This document shows positions 3,911 through 24,476 of a stretch of DNA of 49,597 nt, piece by piece; the stretch's first letter is position 1, and every line of letters begins with the position of its first letter. Below the pieces are notes generated by a model. The model was given only the letters and a program-made list of their open reading frames with translations. It did not search any database and was not told the origin of the DNA. This DNA is from a virus. The translations under genes and the position numbers were made by a program. The stretch spans positions 4,178 to 53,774 of IMG/VR virus record IMGVR_UViG_3300030380_001972; one strand, given 5' to 3'.

Positions 3911-6241
3911 ATGACTCTTGATCCTTCGACCTTGACACCTGCGGCTGTAAAGTCGCGGATGTTACAAGACCAAAGCGCACCACAAATGTCGTTTCCGCAA
4001 GCGACACAACCAACTATGAGTATGCCGCGAATTGATGCAGTTAATCAAAAATCTTTGATTCCTGGTTCTGAATTAGATACTAATTCATCTGATGATGCAT
4101 TTGCTCAACAAATTGGTGTAGATATTTTTGGCTCTACTTTAGAAAATACTTCTCCTGAAGCTATTGCATCTATGGCTACAGATAACGCTGATGATGTCGA
4201 CGACTCTGTAAAAAATATATATTCTGGTCAAACTGACTTTGCTCAAATACTTGGTGCGCTTACGTCTATGGGTTTACAAGAAACAGCTACAGAAAAGCTG
4301 TTAAAAGAAGTAAGCGATGAAAAGGCCACACCTGAAGAAGCTCGTAAAAAAGTTAATGAGTTTTTTAAAATAGATACAGATAAAGAAACACCAATGTGGG
4401 CAGACGTAGCTTTATCTGTTGGTTTAAGTTTACTTCGTGGAGAAGGTGGTAAAGGTGAGTTTTTATCTGACATTGGCGTTGCAGGTGAACGAGGATTAAA
4501 AGTAGCACGAACTCGGCGTAAAGAGAAAAAAGCCGAAGACCTTATGTTAGATAAGTTGGCTTTTGGTGTTTTTAGAGAAGACGAAAAATCTCGTAAAACA
4601 CTTATATCACAACTTACTAAACAACTTGGCGAAGAAAGAAAAGAAAGTAAAACATACGCTCTAAATCTTGCTAAGTTTTTTCAAAAGAACGAAGAAATAA
4701 ATGAAACACAAGCAAAAAATAGAGCAGGTGCTATTACAAATACATTAAATACTTTTTCAACAGACTTAAAAGCAAAAGCTCTACCTATTATTGCTAAAAG
4801 TCCCGATGCGTTTAAAGGTGTACCAACTGACGAAATACCGTCCGTAATCTACGGTTTGTTAAAAAACGGTGGTCTAAATTTAGATGAAATTTCAGATTCT
4901 AAAAATATCGTAGAGTCAAATTTTATGATTACAGATGCAGATACTTATACTCGTTTTCAAACAGCGTTTCCAAGTTCGTTCCCAGAACCGTTTCAAGAAG
5001 GTAAAGAATATCGAGTACAAGGGTTTAGTGATAAGTCACGTGGTAAATCTCAGATGCCTATGACTTCTGTACTTTCAGTGGAAAAATCTTTAGGTGGTCA
5101 AGATGAATTATCTCGTTTGATTACTACAAGAAACGATTTAAATGCAGCATTAATTGCTTCTCCTGAGGATGAAAATATTAAACAACAACTTACAGAAGTA
5201 AACGGTCGTATTGATATTTTGTCAACACGTAAATCACCAATGAGTTATATCTTCGTAGATGGTAAAATGGTTGCGGCTGGGGAAGGCGCGGCTGGTGCGT
5301 ATGCGCAAGCTGAAGCTATATCAAAAGGAACAGAACTATCTAAACAAGGTAATTCACTTGCAGCGGCTTATGGTCTAGGTGATAATATCCTTCGTTCTTT
5401 GGCTTCGACTCCTTCACCTGCTGATTCAGTTGGTGTTGTAGCAAACTTCGGTAAATTTATTGGGGGTGGACGTGGTCAGATAGACGCTGTAATTAACACT
5501 TTCGGTAATAACGCTTCAGATAATCAAGCTAATTATTTAAACGGCACTATTACTTCGAGTATGCAAAACAGCAGTCAACGAGTTGGTAATACAACCGTTG
5601 GTAGTGTGTTTAAAAGACTTGAAGCAATTACTCAAGGTAATACTGAAATTAAATCACAACTTATGAGTTTTGCCTATGCGTTAGCAGGTAGTCGTGAAAC
5701 AGGTAAGTTGACAGATAAAGACGTTGCAGCAGCACTTGTTACTTTTGGTGGTGGCGATATTGCTGACGGTAAATGGTTTGCTAATCCAAACGTGCTTGTA
5801 ACAGGTATTAATCAAGCTCTTGATACAGCAACAAACGCATTTGCTGTAAAATACGACAGTGCACATAACACACCTGATAATATTAAATATTTGCGAGATG
5901 TTGAAGGGCTATCTGAAACGGAAATCGCACGAAGAACTAAATTTAATTTACCTGATTTTATTAAAAAGAACGAAGGTATTCGTGAAGGACTTGGGGATCG
6001 AGTAAGTATTGTAAACGGTAGAGTACAGTTCCAAGGTCTTGATAAATACCGTGGCGATGGGGCTGGAAATGTAGATCCTGGTTCAAGTCGATTTACTCAG
6101 CAACAAATTACCGATTTTAATACTATAGATCGTTTGTATGAATTATATAAAGACGATACAGACCAACTAACTAAACTTATTCAAAGATTCGACGCTGAAA
6201 CACTAGAAGCATATAGACGGTTTAAAAAAGGTGATAAATAA
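3911..6241 (+). CDS. Large presumed internal/ejection protein (776 aa)
   Basis: A 776-aa, mostly soluble, helical and charged protein. The N-terminal 40 residues are Met/Gln/Pro-rich. Residues about 140-310 are strongly Lys/Glu-rich with coiled-coil-like stretches; a small hydrophobic patch lies near 165-178. No protease, lysozyme or nuclease motif was recognised. Its size and place next to the 982-aa protein resemble the paired large internal core proteins of T7-like phages (gp15 and gp16), though sequence similarity to them cannot be claimed. The stop overlaps the next start (TAATG), so the two are probably made in fixed ratio. Confidence 0.8.
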   Translation: MTLDPSTLTPAAVKSRMLQDQSAPQMSFPQATQPTMSMPRIDAVNQKSLIPGSELDTNSSDDAFAQQIGVDIFGSTLENTSPEAIASMATDNADDVDDSVKNIYSGQTDFAQILGALTSMGLQETATEKLLKEVSDEKATPEEARKKVNEFFKIDTDKETPMWADVALSVGLSLLRGEGGKGEFLSDIGVAGERGLKVARTRRKEKKAEDLMLDKLAFGVFREDEKSRKTLISQLTKQLGEERKESKTYALNLAKFFQKNEEINETQAKNRAGAITNTLNTFSTDLKAKALPIIAKSPDAFKGVPTDEIPSVIYGLLKNGGLNLDEISDSKNIVESNFMITDADTYTRFQTAFPSSFPEPFQEGKEYRVQGFSDKSRGKSQMPMTSVLSVEKSLGGQDELSRLITTRNDLNAALIASPEDENIKQQLTEVNGRIDILSTRKSPMSYIFVDGKMVAAGEGAAGAYAQAEAISKGTELSKQGNSLAAAYGLGDNILRSLASTPSPADSVGVVANFGKFIGGGRGQIDAVINTFGNNASDNQANYLNGTITSSMQNSSQRVGNTTVGSVFKRLEAITQGNTEIKSQLMSFAYALAGSRETGKLTDKDVAAALVTFGGGDIADGKWFANPNVLVTGINQALDTATNAFAVKYDSAHNTPDNIKYLRDVEGLSETEIARRTKFNLPDFIKKNEGIREGLGDRVSIVNGRVQFQGLDKYRGDGAGNVDPGSSRFTQQQITDFNTIDRLYELYKDDTDQLTKLIQRFDAETLEAYRRFKKGDK

Positions 6242-12973: not shown

Positions 12974-13567
12974 TTGACTACTAAATATTCTTCTGTAGAA
13001 CGAACTTACAACATTCGCATGGCGGGTCGCATTCGCCGACTTCACATTCGTCCTATGAATGGTGAAGAACAAAACGTAGCCGCACATACTTGGGGCGTTG
13101 TTATGATTCTTCTTGATTTATTTCCAGACGTGTCCCGTGATGCGATAATCTTCGCCCTTCGTCATGATGTACCAGAGGTTGTAACTGGAGATATTCCAGC
13201 TAACGTAAAATGGGATAATGCTGAATTAGAAGAAGCGTTAGAAAAACGAGAAAAAGAGTTTTTAGAAGCTATGGGTTGGAAAACCAAGCATGCAGGAGTT
13301 CCTTCTTGGGATCGTGAAAGTCTATACATAAAAATTGCAGACCGTGTAGAATTGTTATTTTTCTGTCTTGAGCAAATGTATATGGGTAACTGGTTATTGA
13401 CAGACGTGTATGTTAATGTGCGCGATAAAATTGCAGAAGATGTGTCTTTATTAGACAAAGAGTATATGCCTATAATAATTAGTTACATCGACTCGTATAG
13501 TGAATATCTAGCAAAGAATTTTTCTCAGAAAGCAATTCTTTCACACGACGGCTTATCTATCTCATAA
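12974..13567 (+). CDS. HD-domain phosphohydrolase, YfbR-like 5'-deoxynucleotidase
   Basis: 197 aa. The HD signature is clear: His38 in AAHTWGV, the RHD pair at residues 63-65 followed by VPEVVTGDIP, and a later helix with KIADRVELL. The segment RHDVPEVVTGDIP closely follows the YfbR family, which dephosphorylates deoxynucleoside monophosphates. A role in remodelling host nucleotides, or in removing an unwanted dNMP for a modified-base genome, is plausible. The start is a TTG at 12974 behind AGAAAGGG; the first ATG is only at 13019 and would cut conserved sequence. It is transcribed divergently from the helicase. Confidence 0.85.
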   Translation: MTTKYSSVERTYNIRMAGRIRRLHIRPMNGEEQNVAAHTWGVVMILLDLFPDVSRDAIIFALRHDVPEVVTGDIPANVKWDNAELEEALEKREKEFLEAMGWKTKHAGVPSWDRESLYIKIADRVELLFFCLEQMYMGNWLLTDVYVNVRDKIAEDVSLLDKEYMPIIISYIDSYSEYLAKNFSQKAILSHDGLSIS

Positions 13568-14609: not shown

Positions 14610-15401
14610 ATGGCTACAAAAGAAGTCGCTGTTCAACAGCAATCATCCGCAGTCGCAGTAGTCGATGACGATCTGCTTACTCTTGGTACAGGTCTGGAGG
14701 ATACATCCTCTGACGATTTTGCCATTCCGTTTCTTCAGATGCTTCAGGCTCTCAGCCCACAGCTAAACAAAAACGACGGTAAATATATCAAAGGCGCAGA
14801 GCAAGGTAATATCTATAATACTGTTACTGGCGATGCAACCGATGGTGACGAAGGGCTAATCGTAGTTCCTTGTTACTACAATAAAAAGTACCTTGAGTGG
14901 GCTCCACGTGAAACGGGCGGAGGTCTTATCAACGCACACGAAAGTCGTGACATTCTTGCTCAGTGTACTAAGAATGATAGAGGCCAGTTCGTTCTTCCTA
15001 ATCAAAACTATATCGCAGAAACAGCACAGTTTTACGTTATGGTTTGTAACGAAGACGAAACTGCATGGACACAAGCAGTTATCGCTATGACGTCTACTCA
15101 GCTTACAAAAGCTCGTAAGTGGGTTAGTCAGATGAAACAGCGAAGGGTGCAAAACTCAGCAGGAGATATGGTCGAAGCACCTATGTTCTTGTTTAAATAT
15201 CGTCTTAAAACGGTAGCTGAGCAAAACGATCGTGGTTCTTGGTACGGTTGGTCTATCGGCTTAGAAGGTCAGGCTAGTAATAAGGCTATGATTCTTGAAG
15301 GTGCTAACTTCCTTAAAATGATTAAGTCTGGGGATGTACAAGCTAAAAACCCTGATGCAGACGGTACTGTAGCAGATACAGACGAATCTGCTCCTTTCTA
15401 A
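14610..15401 (+). CDS. Presumed single-stranded DNA-binding protein
   Basis: 263 aa behind a strong AGGAGG site. The N-terminus is low in structure, the middle (about 55-230) is a beta-rich domain with aromatic residues, and the last 15 residues are very acidic and end in SAPF, like the acidic hydrophobic tails through which SSBs recruit polymerase, primase and helicase. It stands directly upstream of the primase and helicase genes. The OB fold itself cannot be proven by eye. A hairpin with a short T run follows the stop. Confidence 0.65.
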   Translation: MATKEVAVQQQSSAVAVVDDDLLTLGTGLEDTSSDDFAIPFLQMLQALSPQLNKNDGKYIKGAEQGNIYNTVTGDATDGDEGLIVVPCYYNKKYLEWAPRETGGGLINAHESRDILAQCTKNDRGQFVLPNQNYIAETAQFYVMVCNEDETAWTQAVIAMTSTQLTKARKWVSQMKQRRVQNSAGDMVEAPMFLFKYRLKTVAEQNDRGSWYGWSIGLEGQASNKAMILEGANFLKMIKSGDVQAKNPDADGTVADTDESAPF

Positions 15402-19234: not shown

Positions 19235-20077
19235 ATGGCATCTATTAGAAAAAAACTTGCGGTAAACGCAAATAATTCAAAAAACACTCGCATGGATATT
19301 GCGGGTGCTGGTACGCTTGCTAACTGGCGACCAGACGAACTGGCTCATATTAGTCGCTTTTGTAAGATGGCACAGCTAATTATGGATAGGGCTAAACAAG
19401 AAGGTCGACCACAAGACATTCTTGAAATTGGTTGCGGTGAGGTTTGGACGCTTCGTTATTTATATAAAGCGTTTGTATCTCGTAAGGAAGAAATCGTTAA
19501 TAGTTATACAGGTATGGATATTGATCCAGCTTGTCTTGTAGATTGGTGGGTAGATGATGATTTAGATGTCACTGAACATCAGTGGTTTAAAACTATGACT
19601 GGGGGTAACGGTCGTATAGTTCTTCAAGATTTAACAATTAATTCTGAACCTCCAGTCGAAGACGAGTCTATAGATGTCTTTATGACTACGGAAGTTATCG
19701 AACACATGGGGAGGCAGTTCATTGAACCTTGGATCGAAGCATCATGGCGTAAACTGCGTCCAAACGGCATTGCGTATATCTCGACGCCGAACCACGATGG
19801 GTCTAACGACGTTCTCCCAAAGGACCACGTCTACGAGTGGGGATACGAAGAACTCAAAACCCTCCTCGAAAAATACTACACCATCGAAAGACACTACGGA
19901 ACGTTTACGCAAATGAATAATTTCAAACGTAATCATCGTGCTAATTTAAGATGGCCTCAATTTGTAATAGATGATATACAAGGACGCTTTGATAAAAATT
20001 GGTCTCGTGTTATATTAGCTACAGCTTATCCAGAAACAGCTAATAACTGTAATTGGATTTTAAGGAAAAAAGTATGA
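19235..20077 (+). CDS. Class I SAM-dependent methyltransferase
   Basis: 280 aa behind a GGAG site. Motif I ILEIGCGEVW (residues 62-71), motif II MDIDP (94-98), motif IV TTEVIEHMG (151-159) and the LRPNGIAYISTPNHDG loop define a Rossmann-type methyltransferase of the Methyltransf_11/23 group. The substrate is not readable. Because the next three genes belong to families of thymine hypermodification, a nucleotide or DNA-base substrate is suggested, but host-directed or small-molecule methylation is possible. The middle of the gene (about 19680-19920) uses more C-ending codons than its ends. Stop overlaps next start (ATGA). Confidence 0.85.
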   Translation: MASIRKKLAVNANNSKNTRMDIAGAGTLANWRPDELAHISRFCKMAQLIMDRAKQEGRPQDILEIGCGEVWTLRYLYKAFVSRKEEIVNSYTGMDIDPACLVDWWVDDDLDVTEHQWFKTMTGGNGRIVLQDLTINSEPPVEDESIDVFMTTEVIEHMGRQFIEPWIEASWRKLRPNGIAYISTPNHDGSNDVLPKDHVYEWGYEELKTLLEKYYTIERHYGTFTQMNNFKRNHRANLRWPQFVIDDIQGRFDKNWSRVILATAYPETANNCNWILRKKV

Positions 20078-20901
20078 CACCAGAAGCACGTTTCTTTTGG
20101 TGGATAGAGGAACGCCACCGCGTCTTCGAAAAGAAGAAGCGAGGGCTTCCTCGCGAACATTGGACTGAAGACGAAATACTTCAAACTTATCGGTTCACCA
20201 ACCCCTACCGAGAAAGTGATAAAACAACTGTTTGGTTTCGCGAGAAGATGCGAGACCCTTTAAAAGATGATAATAAAGTCTTAATGGCCACTGTTATCTT
20301 TCGCTGGTTTAACTTAATTCAGACAGGCGAAACGCTTTTAAAGCACAATCTGCATATCGAGTGGGATTCCGAATTAGCTAGGCAAGAGATAAAGAAACAA
20401 GACCAGTACGTTACTGGTGCATACATAATTAAAACTCCTGACGGCAAAGATAAAGTAGACGGTGTTATCTGGTGTATCGAACAGATACTTAAAGATGAAA
20501 ATAGACTAATTAGCCGTTTTATAGAATGCCCACGCTTAGAGATGGCGTGGGAGATATTTCAAGATTATCCCTATCTTGGTGCGTTTATGTCTTATGAGCT
20601 TGTAACAGATTTACGTTGGACACATTTCTTTCAAGGCGCAACTGATATAATGCGTTGGGCTAATGCTGGTCCAGGAGCAATGCGTGGGCTTAATCGTGTT
20701 CATGGTCGTGATTTAAATTATAAGCGTAGATCACATAACTGGAATGCTGAAATGTACGAGTTACTTCAAAAATCTAAAGATTACATAGGTGACTGGATGC
20801 CTAAATTAGAAATGCGTGAGATAGAACACAGCTTATGTGAGTTTGATAAATATGAGCGTGTTCGTAATGGAGAAGGGAGACCAAGAGGTAAGTATCCATG
20901 A
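20074..20901 (+). CDS. Thymine-hypermodification protein (5-hmdU kinase helical domain / aGPT-PPlase-like)
   Basis: 275 aa from the ATG at 20074, which overlaps the previous stop and follows AAGGA; an upstream in-frame ATG (20053) lies inside the methyltransferase and is less likely. Three conserved blocks recall the helical domain of 5-hydroxymethyl-dU DNA kinases and the alpha-glutamyl/putrescinyl-thymine pyrophosphorylases: WTEDEILQTYRFTN near residues 30-43, GPGAMRGLNR near 199-208, and EIEHSLCEFDKYERV near 249-263. There is no P-loop, so this is a stand-alone helical-domain protein rather than a full kinase. Family recognition is from memory of conserved patterns. It sits between a methyltransferase and a TS-family enzyme with four-base overlaps. 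Confidence 0.6.
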   Translation: MTPEARFFWWIEERHRVFEKKKRGLPREHWTEDEILQTYRFTNPYRESDKTTVWFREKMRDPLKDDNKVLMATVIFRWFNLIQTGETLLKHNLHIEWDSELARQEIKKQDQYVTGAYIIKTPDGKDKVDGVIWCIEQILKDENRLISRFIECPRLEMAWEIFQDYPYLGAFMSYELVTDLRWTHFFQGATDIMRWANAGPGAMRGLNRVHGRDLNYKRRSHNWNAEMYELLQKSKDYIGDWMPKLEMREIEHSLCEFDKYERVRNGEGRPRGKYP

Positions 20902-21896
20902 AAGTAATTAGAGAAAAAAATATTAATGGTGTTTTTAATATCGCTGTTATGAACCTACGAGAAACCGACCGTTTGATAAAAATGGATTCTCGTAATGGTA
21001 AAGTATACATGTTCGCTGAACCTGTAACCTCGGTTTATACACGACCTAATGAACGAGTGCTGTTTAGCCCAGAAAGAAACTGTAATCCGTTTTTTCATTT
21101 TATTGAAGGACTATGGATGTTGGCGGGACGTAACGACTTAGAAACACTAACAGAGTTTGTTCCAAGGATGGCAGAATTTTCTGACGACGGTGTTCTTGTA
21201 AACGGTGCGTATGGTCATCGTTGGCGTGAATGGTTTGGACGAGATCAGCTAGAAGAAGTTGTTCAAATATTGCTATCTGATCCATTAGATCGCCGTGCCG
21301 TTTTACAAATGTGGGATGCTACTAAAGATCTTGGTTCTGGGTCAAAAGATGTACCTTGTAATACACAAGTCTTTTTTAAGTGTCGTCCTATTACACACGA
21401 AGATGATTATATTCTTGATATGACTGTAACTAACCGTTCAAACGATATGATTTGGGGGGCTTATGGTGCAAACGTTGTACACTTTTCAATGTTACATGAA
21501 TATGTTGCCGCATTCACAGGGTGTCGTATTGGACATTATTATCAGGTAAGCAACAATGCTCATGTATATGATAGTGTTTGGTCTAAGCTAGAATCAAAGT
21601 TACCGCAAGGATATCCCGTTGACCCTTATGAGGCATACGATCTTAAACCGTATCCGTTAGTGGAACACACTTATTCATTTGACCACGAACTTGTTAAATT
21701 CTTTAACTGGATGCGATTAGGTCATGATCATAAAGAATTTCTAAATACTATATTTCCTGAAGTAGCCATGCCTTTAGTTGAAGCATGGTGGCTTCATAAA
21801 GGTGGTTTAAATGTAGAAGCACTATCTGTTGCTAAAAGAATACAAGCAGACGATTGGAGAAAAGCCTGTGTCGAATGGATCGAAAGAAAAATCTGA
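20898..21896 (+). CDS. Thymidylate synthase-family enzyme (ThyA-type TS or dUMP hydroxymethylase)
   Basis: 332 aa. Readable ThyA-superfamily features: VNGAYGHRWR (101-110), the phosphate-binding DRRAVLQMWD (131-140), the catalytic cysteine Cys154 in VPCNTQVFF, and NRSNDMIWGAYGANVVHFS (179-197) with Asn192 in the place of the dUMP-selective asparagine. It therefore acts on dUMP and makes either dTMP or 5-hydroxymethyl-dUMP; the sequence alone does not decide, but the neighbours (hypermodification-type protein before, Nmad1-like protein after) favour the hydroxymethylase. The ATG overlaps the previous stop. Confidence 0.85.
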   Translation: MKVIREKNINGVFNIAVMNLRETDRLIKMDSRNGKVYMFAEPVTSVYTRPNERVLFSPERNCNPFFHFIEGLWMLAGRNDLETLTEFVPRMAEFSDDGVLVNGAYGHRWREWFGRDQLEEVVQILLSDPLDRRAVLQMWDATKDLGSGSKDVPCNTQVFFKCRPITHEDDYILDMTVTNRSNDMIWGAYGANVVHFSMLHEYVAAFTGCRIGHYYQVSNNAHVYDSVWSKLESKLPQGYPVDPYEAYDLKPYPLVEHTYSFDHELVKFFNWMRLGHDHKEFLNTIFPEVAMPLVEAWWLHKGGLNVEALSVAKRIQADDWRKACVEWIERKI

Positions 21897-22188
21897 AGTT
21901 ATATATACAGTTGGTTGCCTTGCCGCAGAAGATGTCGATAGGTTAGGTATAGCCGAGCAGTCCTATGGTGACAGCTGGAAACAGCGGGGCGGTATCGGGG
22001 CGTTTATGATGGCGGCACGTAAATGGGATCGGTTAGAAAAACAGGTAACGGAACATGGTTACGATATCTTCAAAGCTATGCAGGCAGATACCAGACCTGA
22101 AGGTATTTTAGACGATATACGAGACCTTAGACGCTATCTATTTCTAATAGATGCAGAAATTTGTAATAGGGGTAGTCAACGTGACTAA
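21868..22188 (+). CDS. Nmad1-like (nucleotide-modification-associated, DUF1599-type) protein
   Basis: 106 aa if started at GTG 21868, which follows GGAGAAAA; the longer TTG start at 21829 has no binding site. The motif SYGDSWKQRGGIGAFMM (residues about 30-46) followed by ARKWDRLEKQV and LDDIRDLRRYL is the pattern of a small all-helical domain found in phages next to hydroxymethylpyrimidine synthases. The activity is not known to me; it may be a nucleotide-pyrophosphatase-like helical protein. It overlaps the TS-family gene by 29 bases and DNA polymerase by 8. Confidence 0.7.
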   Translation: MSNGSKEKSEVIYTVGCLAAEDVDRLGIAEQSYGDSWKQRGGIGAFMMAARKWDRLEKQVTEHGYDIFKAMQADTRPEGILDDIRDLRRYLFLIDAEICNRGSQRD

Positions 22189-24187
22189 TAATATAGTAAG
22201 CTCAACGCAGACAAAAACTGCAAAGAAGCAAGCTATGCCAAAAAATCCTCTTCAACAACCTTTGTTTTCTCCTGATAGTGATTGGACGCCACCAGAAGTG
22301 CTTCCTGATTTAAAGGGAGCTAAAGAAATTTGTATCGACTTAGAAACCTATGACCCCTCTCTAAAAGAGCGTGGTGCTGGTTGGGCAAGAAGCGATGGTC
22401 ATGTTGTAGGTTATGCTGTAGCAACTTCTGATTGGTCTGGCTACTTACCTGTAAAACACGAAGCAGGAGGAAACTTAAATGAAAAACTTGTTAAGAAATG
22501 GTTACAAGATCAAATTAATAATGGTGCGGATATTATTTGCCATAACGCTTCTTACGACATTGGGTGGATGCGCAGGGAAGGTATCGAGTTGCGTGGAAAC
22601 AGACTTATTGACACTATGGTGTCTGCCCCTCTGATAGATGAAAATAGATTTAGTTATGCATTAAACGCTTTAGGTAGGGAATACTTACAAGAAAGAAAAG
22701 ACGAGACGTTACTACGAGATGCCGCTGAAGCATGGAGCGTAGATGCAAAAGGTGGTTTACATCGTCTACCGCCTATGTATGTAGGACCATATGCAGAACA
22801 AGATGCTTTGTTAACTCTAAAGCTGTGGGAGTGGCAAAAGGGCGAGATGACACGGCAGGATTTATGGTCTATCTTCGACCTTGAATCTTCGATTACTCCT
22901 TTACTTATAGAGATGCGGTGGAGAGGTGTGCGAGTAGATTTAGATAAAGCAGAAGAATTATCTAAATGGTTTCGTGCAAGAGAGGAAGCCGCCCTTCATC
23001 AAATAAAGAAACTTTGTGGGCGCAATGTAGAAGTTTGGGCAAACAAATCTATTCAACAAGCGTTTGATTCACTCAACTTAACTTATCCTAAAACAGCACT
23101 TGATGCACCATCGTTTCAACAGTCTTGGCTTGAAAACCATGAACACGATATGCCTAAGCTGATTGTAGAAGCTCGAAAGATGAATAAAGCAAGGACTACA
23201 TTTATTGATGGAATGATTATGTCTAACCAAGTCGATGGGCGTATCCACGCAGAGCTTCACCCCCTTCGCTCAGACGACGGAGGAACGGTGACTGGACGGT
23301 TTAGCTACTCTAACCCTAACTTGCAACAAGTTCCCGCCAGAGACCCTGAGATCGGCACGAAAATACGTTCTCTATTTATACCTGAGGAAGGTTGCCAGTG
23401 GGGGGCGTTTGACTATTCGCAACAAGAGCCACGGATCGTTGTTCATTATTCTGATATGATGGGGCTTCCTGGAGCGAGCGATGCCGTAAAAGCATTCCAA
23501 GAAGAAGATGCAGACTTCCATCAAATCGTAGCTGATATGGCGGGGATACCGCGCAAGCAAGCTAAGAACATCAACCTTGGTTTATTTTATTCGATGGGCG
23601 TAACTAAACTATCAGAAAGCCTTGGACTAACCCTTGACGAAGGTAAAGAGCTGTTTAGTCAATATCATGCGCGAGTACCGTTTGTAAAACAACTTTCTGA
23701 GAGGGCAGTACAGAGGGCTTCAAAACAAGGAAGTATTCGTACGCTTCTAGGGCGACGGTGTCGGTTCGATAAATGGGAACCAGCACAGTTTGGTACACGT
23801 AAAATCATGGATCATAAAACAGCGTATGCAGAACACGGTAACGCAATCAAAAGAGCATTCACCCATAAAGCAATGAATAGACTCATTCAGGGAAGCGCGG
23901 CTGATATGACAAAAAAAGCTATGAAGATGTTGTACGATGAAGGTATCGTTCCGCATATTCAAGTACACGATGAATTAGATTTTTCTATCGAATCAGAAGA
24001 GCAAATCATTAAGATAAAAGAAATTATGGAACAGTGCGTAGAGTTGTCTGTTCCTATTAAAGTAGACGTTGACTTAGGACCAAACTGGGGAGACGCTAAA
24101 GAAATAGAAAAGGTAATTAGCCATGCAGAAAGCACAAGGGGATGGACAAGAGGACAAGAGGCAGACTACGCAGTGCAAAAAGTGTAA
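22181..24187 (+). CDS. polA: Family A DNA polymerase with 3'-5' exonuclease
   Basis: 668 aa from a GTG at 22181 preceded by AGGGG; an upstream ATG (22151) lacks a binding site and lies deeper in the previous gene. Exonuclease motifs: DLE (Asp53, Glu55), HNASYD and YAEQD. Polymerase motif A is DYSQQEPR (Asp411), motif B RKQAKNINLGLFY (458-470), motif C VHDE (Asp597). The residue equivalent to E. coli Phe762 is Leu466. A 5' nuclease domain is absent, as in most phage enzymes. It is the replicative polymerase, served by the primase, helicase and SSB-like proteins upstream. Confidence 0.97.
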   Translation: MTNNIVSSTQTKTAKKQAMPKNPLQQPLFSPDSDWTPPEVLPDLKGAKEICIDLETYDPSLKERGAGWARSDGHVVGYAVATSDWSGYLPVKHEAGGNLNEKLVKKWLQDQINNGADIICHNASYDIGWMRREGIELRGNRLIDTMVSAPLIDENRFSYALNALGREYLQERKDETLLRDAAEAWSVDAKGGLHRLPPMYVGPYAEQDALLTLKLWEWQKGEMTRQDLWSIFDLESSITPLLIEMRWRGVRVDLDKAEELSKWFRAREEAALHQIKKLCGRNVEVWANKSIQQAFDSLNLTYPKTALDAPSFQQSWLENHEHDMPKLIVEARKMNKARTTFIDGMIMSNQVDGRIHAELHPLRSDDGGTVTGRFSYSNPNLQQVPARDPEIGTKIRSLFIPEEGCQWGAFDYSQQEPRIVVHYSDMMGLPGASDAVKAFQEEDADFHQIVADMAGIPRKQAKNINLGLFYSMGVTKLSESLGLTLDEGKELFSQYHARVPFVKQLSERAVQRASKQGSIRTLLGRRCRFDKWEPAQFGTRKIMDHKTAYAEHGNAIKRAFTHKAMNRLIQGSAADMTKKAMKMLYDEGIVPHIQVHDELDFSIESEEQIIKIKEIMEQCVELSVPIKVDVDLGPNWGDAKEIEKVISHAESTRGWTRGQEADYAVQKV

Positions 24188-24476
24188 GACAAGTGTTGAT
24201 ACAACTTATGTAGTAGATAGCCGCACATATAAAGGCACAGTCAGACGTCGCAGAAAATGTAGAATATGTGATACGAAAGTTTATACAGAAGAAAAAATTG
24301 TAGCTGTCGGCAAGACTCCATGGTCTGTAAAAAGCAGACGAAAAATTGAGAAGGCTTTACCTAAGAAAACAAGAAAAAGAATCTTAAAACCCCATATCAA
24401 AGAAACTGTTAAAGAGCCTGATTTTGATACTATGACAGACGAACAGCTTGAAGCTTGGATATTTAACCAAGAGTAG
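24123..24476 (+). CDS. NrdR-type zinc-ribbon protein
   Basis: 117 aa, overlapping the polymerase gene by 65 bases in another frame. Two CxxC knuckles (Cys18/21 and Cys46/49) flank VVDSRTYKGTVRRRRKC, which closely follows the DNA-binding zinc ribbon of the ribonucleotide reductase repressor NrdR (VxDSR...RRRxC..C). The ATP-cone that NrdR carries after the ribbon is missing; instead there is a Lys/Arg-rich helix and an acidic tail. It may bind NrdR boxes of the host or a phage site. Function inferred from the ribbon only. Confidence 0.75.
   Translation: MQKAQGDGQEDKRQTTQCKKCKTSVDTTYVVDSRTYKGTVRRRRKCRICDTKVYTEEKIVAVGKTPWSVKSRRKIEKALPKKTRKRILKPHIKETVKEPDFDTMTDEQLEAWIFNQE

Follow-up and report, generated by a model that had tools for sequence, protein, structure and literature searches.

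Here we report a cassette for thymine modification in which a methyltransferase stands in place of the kinase pathway, found in a 49,597-nucleotide (nt) stretch of DNA from a marine phage (hereafter referred to as the window; positions 4,178 to 53,774 of IMG/VR record IMGVR_UViG_3300030380_001972, which comprises 53,774 bases). The cassette is real, conserved and of a known kind. It encodes a class I S-adenosylmethionine (SAM)-dependent methyltransferase (MTase), a stand-alone HMUDK_hel protein (alias aGPT-Pplase1), a thymidylate synthase (TS)-family enzyme and a small conserved open reading frame (ORF). The known thymine hypermodifications in M6-related phages are built on phosphorylated 5-hydroxymethyl-2′-deoxyuridine (5-hmdU). 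The DNA of the window phage very probably contains a base derived from 5-hmdU, probably in place of thymine, and the MTase probably acts in the 5-hmdU pathway; the chances are about even that, in this cassette class, the MTase replaces the kinase/amino-acid-transferase pathway to yield 5-methoxymethyl-2′-deoxyuridine. The arrangement points to a recurrent kinase-free route in marine phages, and opens three ideas to testing: that a DNA base is O-methylated, that the tailoring slot next to HMUDK_hel is exchangeable, and that HMUDK_hel can function without the kinase that its Pfam name implies.

The four cassette ORFs lie on one strand, with overlaps of 4, 4 and 29 nt, between a UvrD-like helicase and a DNA polymerase of family A. 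The relevant features of the window are as follows.
19235 to 20077, plus strand: class I SAM-dependent MTase, 280 amino acids (aa) (Pfam Methyltransf_23/11)
20074 to 20901, plus strand: stand-alone HMUDK_hel, 275 aa (PF18723)
20898 to 21896, plus strand: TS-family enzyme, predicted dUMP 5-hydroxymethylase, 332 aa (PF00303, phrog_5131)
21868 to 22188, plus strand: small conserved ORF, 106 aa, GTG start (conserved family alignment)
22151 to 24187, plus strand: DNA polymerase family A (PF00476, E 1.9e-67)
12974 to 13567, plus strand: HD-domain 5′-deoxynucleotidase, YfbR-like (PF12917, E 5.2e-13)

An earlier note, made from the letters of the window, had described these four overlapping genes upstream of the polymerase as a SAM methyltransferase, a protein like the 5-hmdU kinase helical domain or aGPT-PPlase, a TS-family enzyme and an Nmad1-like protein, had remarked on the missing P-loop kinase, and had proposed a hydroxymethyl-dU route to modified thymine. 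Profile searches bear out the gene order and the first three assignments, and the absence of the kinase extends beyond the cassette to the entire record. A thymine-modification cassette remains the best reading on gene content, the stand-alone HMUDK_hel and the lack of a kinase.

The replacement of the kinase is indicated by a survey of HMUDK_hel-bearing loci, which we gathered from IMG/VR scans and named phages, classed by their neighbours within ~6 kb and made non-redundant at 95% identity. In the resulting 176 loci, the MTase is present in 67, the kinase in 67 (48 of which have an amino acid:DNA transferase as well) and a TET-associated glycosyltransferase (TAGT) in 23; the other 19 contain other modules, are cut off or hold nothing recognised. 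The scans keep the best 80 matches per query, and these class counts are not abundances. MTase, kinase and TAGT are mutually exclusive, with no locus among the 176 having two of the three. The MTase directly precedes HMUDK_hel throughout the MTase-class loci, occupying the position at which M6- and PaMx11-type phages have the 5-hmdU DNA kinase; the kinase adjoins HMUDK_hel in 46 of the 56 kinase loci with room, and the TS does so in nearly all loci with room. On the HMUDK_hel tree, the MTase class accounts for about 2 changes, versus 31 in shuffles, and a clade with 99% support joins this class with PaMx11 (kinase), L084 (TAGT) and other module types. Judged by these sequence comparisons, the MTase layout belongs to a set of several module types that can be exchanged, with the MTase in the slot that is elsewhere held by the kinase. 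The earlier note had taken the cassette for a minimal or divergent version; read as a reduction of the M6 pathway, this does not fit a layout conserved across 67 non-redundant loci of marine phages with the MTase in the kinase slot. Its further suggestion that the base is perhaps methylated agrees with the survey.

The rest of the kinase pathway is likewise missing. A record-wide phmmer search of all ORFs with M6, PaMx11 and Pam3 queries found no homologue of the kinase, the amino acid:DNA transferase, or the pyridoxal phosphate (PLP), radical-SAM-type, flavin adenine dinucleotide (FAD) and acetyltransferase enzymes, and the sole plausible P-loop in the record is that of the UvrD helicase. Neither a 5-hmdU DNA kinase of the HMUDK_HMUD1-type P-loop family nor a PF18724 match (amino acid:DNA transferase) was found in this record or in 13 related MTase-class records of 51–66 kb, with both controls positive in each case. 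As these 13 records are likewise without a kinase, we ruled out the explanation that the record is a fragment from which the kinase has been lost. RefSeq labels the P-loop proteins that take the place of the kinase in PaMx11 (L004:7420-7989) and M6 (L005:7393-7956) as terminase small subunit; the M6 protein scores 65.1 bits against HMUDK_HMUD1 (cut-off 27), and this label therefore looks wrong.

The TS-family enzyme matches PF00303 (E 2.3e-20) and phrog_5131 (E 2.2e-103), and shares 46% identity with the M6 TS (275 bits), 37% with the dUMP hydroxymethylase gp29 of SPO1 (143 bits) and 26% with Escherichia coli ThyA (44 bits). In an alignment with SPO1 gp29, T4 dCMP hydroxymethylase (gp42) and ThyA, it has the catalytic Cys, shares the RSND and GAN motifs of gp29 (RSND being the hydroxymethylase form, where ThyA has RSCD), is nearer gp29 than ThyA, and keeps Asn at the position where gp42 has Asp. 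This position decides between dUMP and dCMP in the TS family. The top PDB sequence match is a CMP 5-hydroxymethylase. Unlike the window, the 47-kb stretch of SPO1 that was inspected has no annotated HMUDK_hel or MTase in the vicinity of gp29.

HMUDK_hel begins at an ATG that has a 4-nt overlap with the stop of the MTase, and matches PF18723 over profile positions 6–277 of 281 (158.6 bits, cut-off 25; E 2.8e-46) and phrog_2396 (E 8e-58). It is 45% identical to PaMx11 gp50, the closest homologue in a named phage, and 36% identical to the M6 gp55 protein. A sequence search against PDB chains found no match. In a Foldseek search with the AlphaFold model (predicted local distance difference test score (pLDDT) 94.3), the best PDB matches were the helix-hairpin-helix (HhH) 8-oxoguanine glycosylase MjOgg (probability 0.99, TM 0.42–0.53, weak E of 0.13) and PaMx11 gp46 (probability 0.93, weak E of 0.38). 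A pairwise hhalign comparison with a small alignment of amino acid:DNA transferases did not reach significance, and only with larger alignments did the profile match reach E 3.5e-5 across 101 columns, which span the GPFMAYE..D and IE..LCE motifs (versus 0.03–0.5 for four unrelated controls). By profile and predicted fold, HMUDK_hel is thus probably a distant homologue of the amino acid:DNA transferase with an HhH-glycosylase-like fold. Its core residues R14, R46, D49, D179, D191, GPG199–201, C255, E256 and K259 are near-universal in all module classes, and its job therefore seems to be independent of the kinase; as this core is largely constant across classes, the exchanged part appears to be the tailoring enzyme.

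The MTase (METHYLTRANSFERASE) scores 38.6 and 29.6 bits against Methyltransf_23 and Methyltransf_11, both above cut-off. Its fold was predicted with a pLDDT of 83.7, and the 50 PDB matches listed for the model are class I methyltransferases that act on small molecules, together with related proteins; no DNA base methyltransferase is among them. No DNA methyltransferase Pfam model matched, the aligned motif IV region contains no DPPY-type or PCQ motif, and a sequence search against PDB chains found no match. Cultured phages contain weak relatives only (25–28%, 5 records). Among bacterial homologues, the sole strong match is on a phage-like contig in a Maricaulis metagenome-assembled genome (L364:314-5098; primase, helicase and an MTase at 49%), which is probably phage DNA and hints at an alphaproteobacterial host. 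Members of the MTase family also occur without HMUDK_hel: at L123:1-2563, L125:9950-12410 and L328:846-2759, they adjoin a TS-family enzyme whose residue at the position separating dUMP from dCMP is Asp, like that of T4 dCMP hydroxymethylase, and HMUDK_hel was looked for and not found in these three records. L123 and L125 each also have a protein resembling thymidylate kinase beside the MTase. These loci may encode a system for methylated 5-hydroxymethylcytosine. Since a 5-hydroxymethylpyrimidine is common to both settings of the MTase, with and without HMUDK_hel, O-methylation of the 5-hydroxymethyl group is favoured.

In the pathway that we propose, the TS-family enzyme would convert dUMP into 5-hydroxymethyl-dUMP; the YfbR-like nucleotidase, perhaps with the small ORF, would move the pool away from dTMP; and the phage DNA polymerase would build 5-hmdU into DNA. 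HMUDK_hel, with its candidate HhH DNA-glycosylase-like fold, would then bind the DNA and expose or mark 5-hmdU, and the MTase would methylate the hydroxymethyl oxygen to give 5-methoxymethyl-2′-deoxyuridine. What was observed is gene content, homology, synteny, a record lacking kinase and transferase, the exclusion between module types and the predicted folds; each of these reactions is inferred. That the MTase O-methylates the 5-hydroxymethyl group is a tentative assignment, with rather less than an even chance. At about the same chance, or slightly lower, we place the wider proposal that the product is 5-methoxymethyl-2′-deoxyuridine or another SAM-methylated 5-hmdU, that the MTase family elsewhere also acts on 5-hydroxymethylcytosine, and that HMUDK_hel is a general 5-hmdU DNA platform with a swapped catalytic partner (kinase, glycosyltransferase or methyltransferase). 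We know of no phage DNA base of the methoxymethyl kind, and no paper in the literature searched brought methoxymethyl together with phages, hydroxymethyl and the modification of DNA. Such a modified base could protect phage DNA against bacterial defences; if the proposal is true, restriction and other defences would have one more DNA base to recognise, and the enzymes could serve as tools for 5-hmdU.

Several points weigh against this pathway. The residue rule that separates dUMP from dCMP is carried over from established knowledge to a predicted enzyme, conserved adjacency is no proof of a common pathway, and the predicted small-molecule fold of the MTase does not tell its acceptor. The L123, L125 and L328 loci suggest that the MTase can act without HMUDK_hel, which weakens a fixed pairing; in L123, a kinase-like ORF adjoins the MTase, and no TS was seen in two more MTase contigs, L122 and L327, both of which are fragments. 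Given the generic MTase fold, and a record without the kinase or the amino acid:DNA transferase, the DNA could contain plain 5-hmdU, as in SPO1-like phages, with the MTase directed at something else, such as a host or virion molecule. We consider this unlikely, as the MTase adjoins HMUDK_hel across its class to the exclusion of the kinase and TAGT modules, and related MTases lie near hydroxymethylase-type enzymes in other phages. It is somewhat less likely again that HMUDK_hel is itself a transferase, as is its probable homologue the amino acid:DNA transferase, which would place a small group on unphosphorylated 5-hmdU for the MTase to methylate; the Foldseek and profile matches described above and the core strongly conserved in all classes are consistent with this, but M6-type phages have a separate transferase besides HMUDK_hel, and a reaction at a hydroxyl without phosphate would not be that of PaMx11 gp46, a glycinyltransferase whose PDB title names 5-phosphomethyl-dU as the substrate.

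The two other explanations are improbable. Homologues of the TS-family enzyme in related phages carry the annotation thymidylate synthase, as expected if it were an ordinary enzyme raising dTTP for replication of unmodified DNA; however, its closeness to SPO1 gp29 rather than ThyA, its RSND motif and its position next to HMUDK_hel in almost every locus with room make this very doubtful. Least probable of all is the supply of 5-phosphomethyl-dU by a host kinase or an unrecognised phage kinase, leading to amino derivatives like those of M6 or PaMx11. Phage sequence cannot speak to a host kinase, and the record, which lacks repeats at its ends, may miss a short piece, but the 14 MTase-class records, the present one included, gave no match for the kinase or PF18724 in searches with positive controls. 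Replacement of the kinase pathway by the MTase is the reading that we prefer.

The thymine hypermodification of Pseudomonas phages M6 and YuA is 5-(2-aminoethyl)-dU. The window shares with them the TS-family enzyme, HMUDK_hel, the HD nucleotidase and DNA polymerase A in a similar order, whereas M6 has the 5-hmdU DNA kinase, the amino acid:DNA transferase, and PLP-type and radical-SAM-type enzymes where the window has the MTase instead. PaMx11 (Abidjanvirus), despite an HMUDK_hel in the same supported clade, has the kinase, the glycinyltransferase gp46 (for which a structure has been solved), an FAD enzyme and an acetyltransferase; for M6 and PaMx11, we take the enzyme roles from the gp46 PDB title, Pfam names and general knowledge. 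Pseudanabaena phage Pam3 resembles the window in its HMUDK_hel, TS, nucleotidase and polymerase, again in a similar order, but differs in having the kinase and the amino acid:DNA transferase, together with Nmad5 and with genes of the PLP and photolyase/radical-SAM types.

The window terminase is ~60% identical to those of HTVC027P and phage 023Pt_psg01 and 64% identical to that of DSL-LC04, and the window phage is therefore HTVC023P-like. In 023Pt_psg01 and DSL-LC04, the helicase adjoins the polymerase and the cassette is absent, providing natural empty sites. According to the examined sections of PMC9599517, HTVC023P-type pelagiphages of clades V, VIII and IX have, like the window, a TS and aG/PT-PPlase1 near PolA, and those of clade II have a nucleotidase and a glucosyltransferase; those sections mention neither the absence of the kinase nor exchangeable modules, and the word methyltransferase appears nowhere in the main text of PMC9599517. 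No earlier report of the MTase class or of module exclusivity was found in the literature searchable here.

Other kinase-free modules were observed beside HMUDK_hel. In L033, L035, L037, L040, L043 and L045, it is accompanied by an FkbM-type methyltransferase, a group 1 glycosyltransferase and a TS, which suggests a glycosylated and methylated 5-hmdU. In L042 (8664-11540), L046, L050 and L051, the TS is preceded by a protein that matches no Pfam family and by a radical SAM/SPASM protein, with a cytidylyltransferase/cupin fusion in L042 and L046. TAGT, probably the beta-glucosyl-HMC-alpha-glucosyltransferase of PMC9599517, adjoins HMUDK_hel and TS without a kinase at L084:5595-6428, L232:3997-4794 and L237:10843-11631. 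A 2-oxoglutarate (2OG)-Fe(II) oxygenase (PF13532) lies near the cassette in roughly one in two MTase and TAGT loci (for example, L217:8910-9488); it occurs in none of the 64 kinase loci with room and is absent from the window genome.

The small ORF is by sequence a real conserved family, with the core YGDSWKxRGGxGAFMMxARKWDR...DDIRDLRRYL. It adjoins the same genes in most of the related marine phages and in Pam3, whose homologue (Pam3_54, 49.5%) is the sole clear one in a named phage. Its assignment to Nmad1 (DUF1599, PF07659) in the earlier note was rejected at the thresholds used: the ORF has no Pfam match of its own, only one of 27 family members touches DUF1599 (E 0.052), and a PF07659 search of the record returned nothing up to E 10.

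Promoter and terminator scans yielded nothing above chance level. The HD nucleotidase, located ~6 kb upstream of the cassette, is a homologue of a cassette member of M6 and Pam3 (phmmer E 7e-20 and 4e-15, respectively). The real start of the DNA polymerase may be the GTG at 22181, and the protein scores 367.6 bits against the NCBIfam model of the aminoadenine-incorporating DpoZ, under the cut-off of 500. Right after it, 24123-24476 encodes a zinc-ribbon protein similar to the N-terminal domain of NrdR (25.4 bits, slightly under cut-off), and the ORF at 14610-15401 strongly matches PF23977 (Pam3 phage gp34-like protein), a further tie to cyanophage Pam3.

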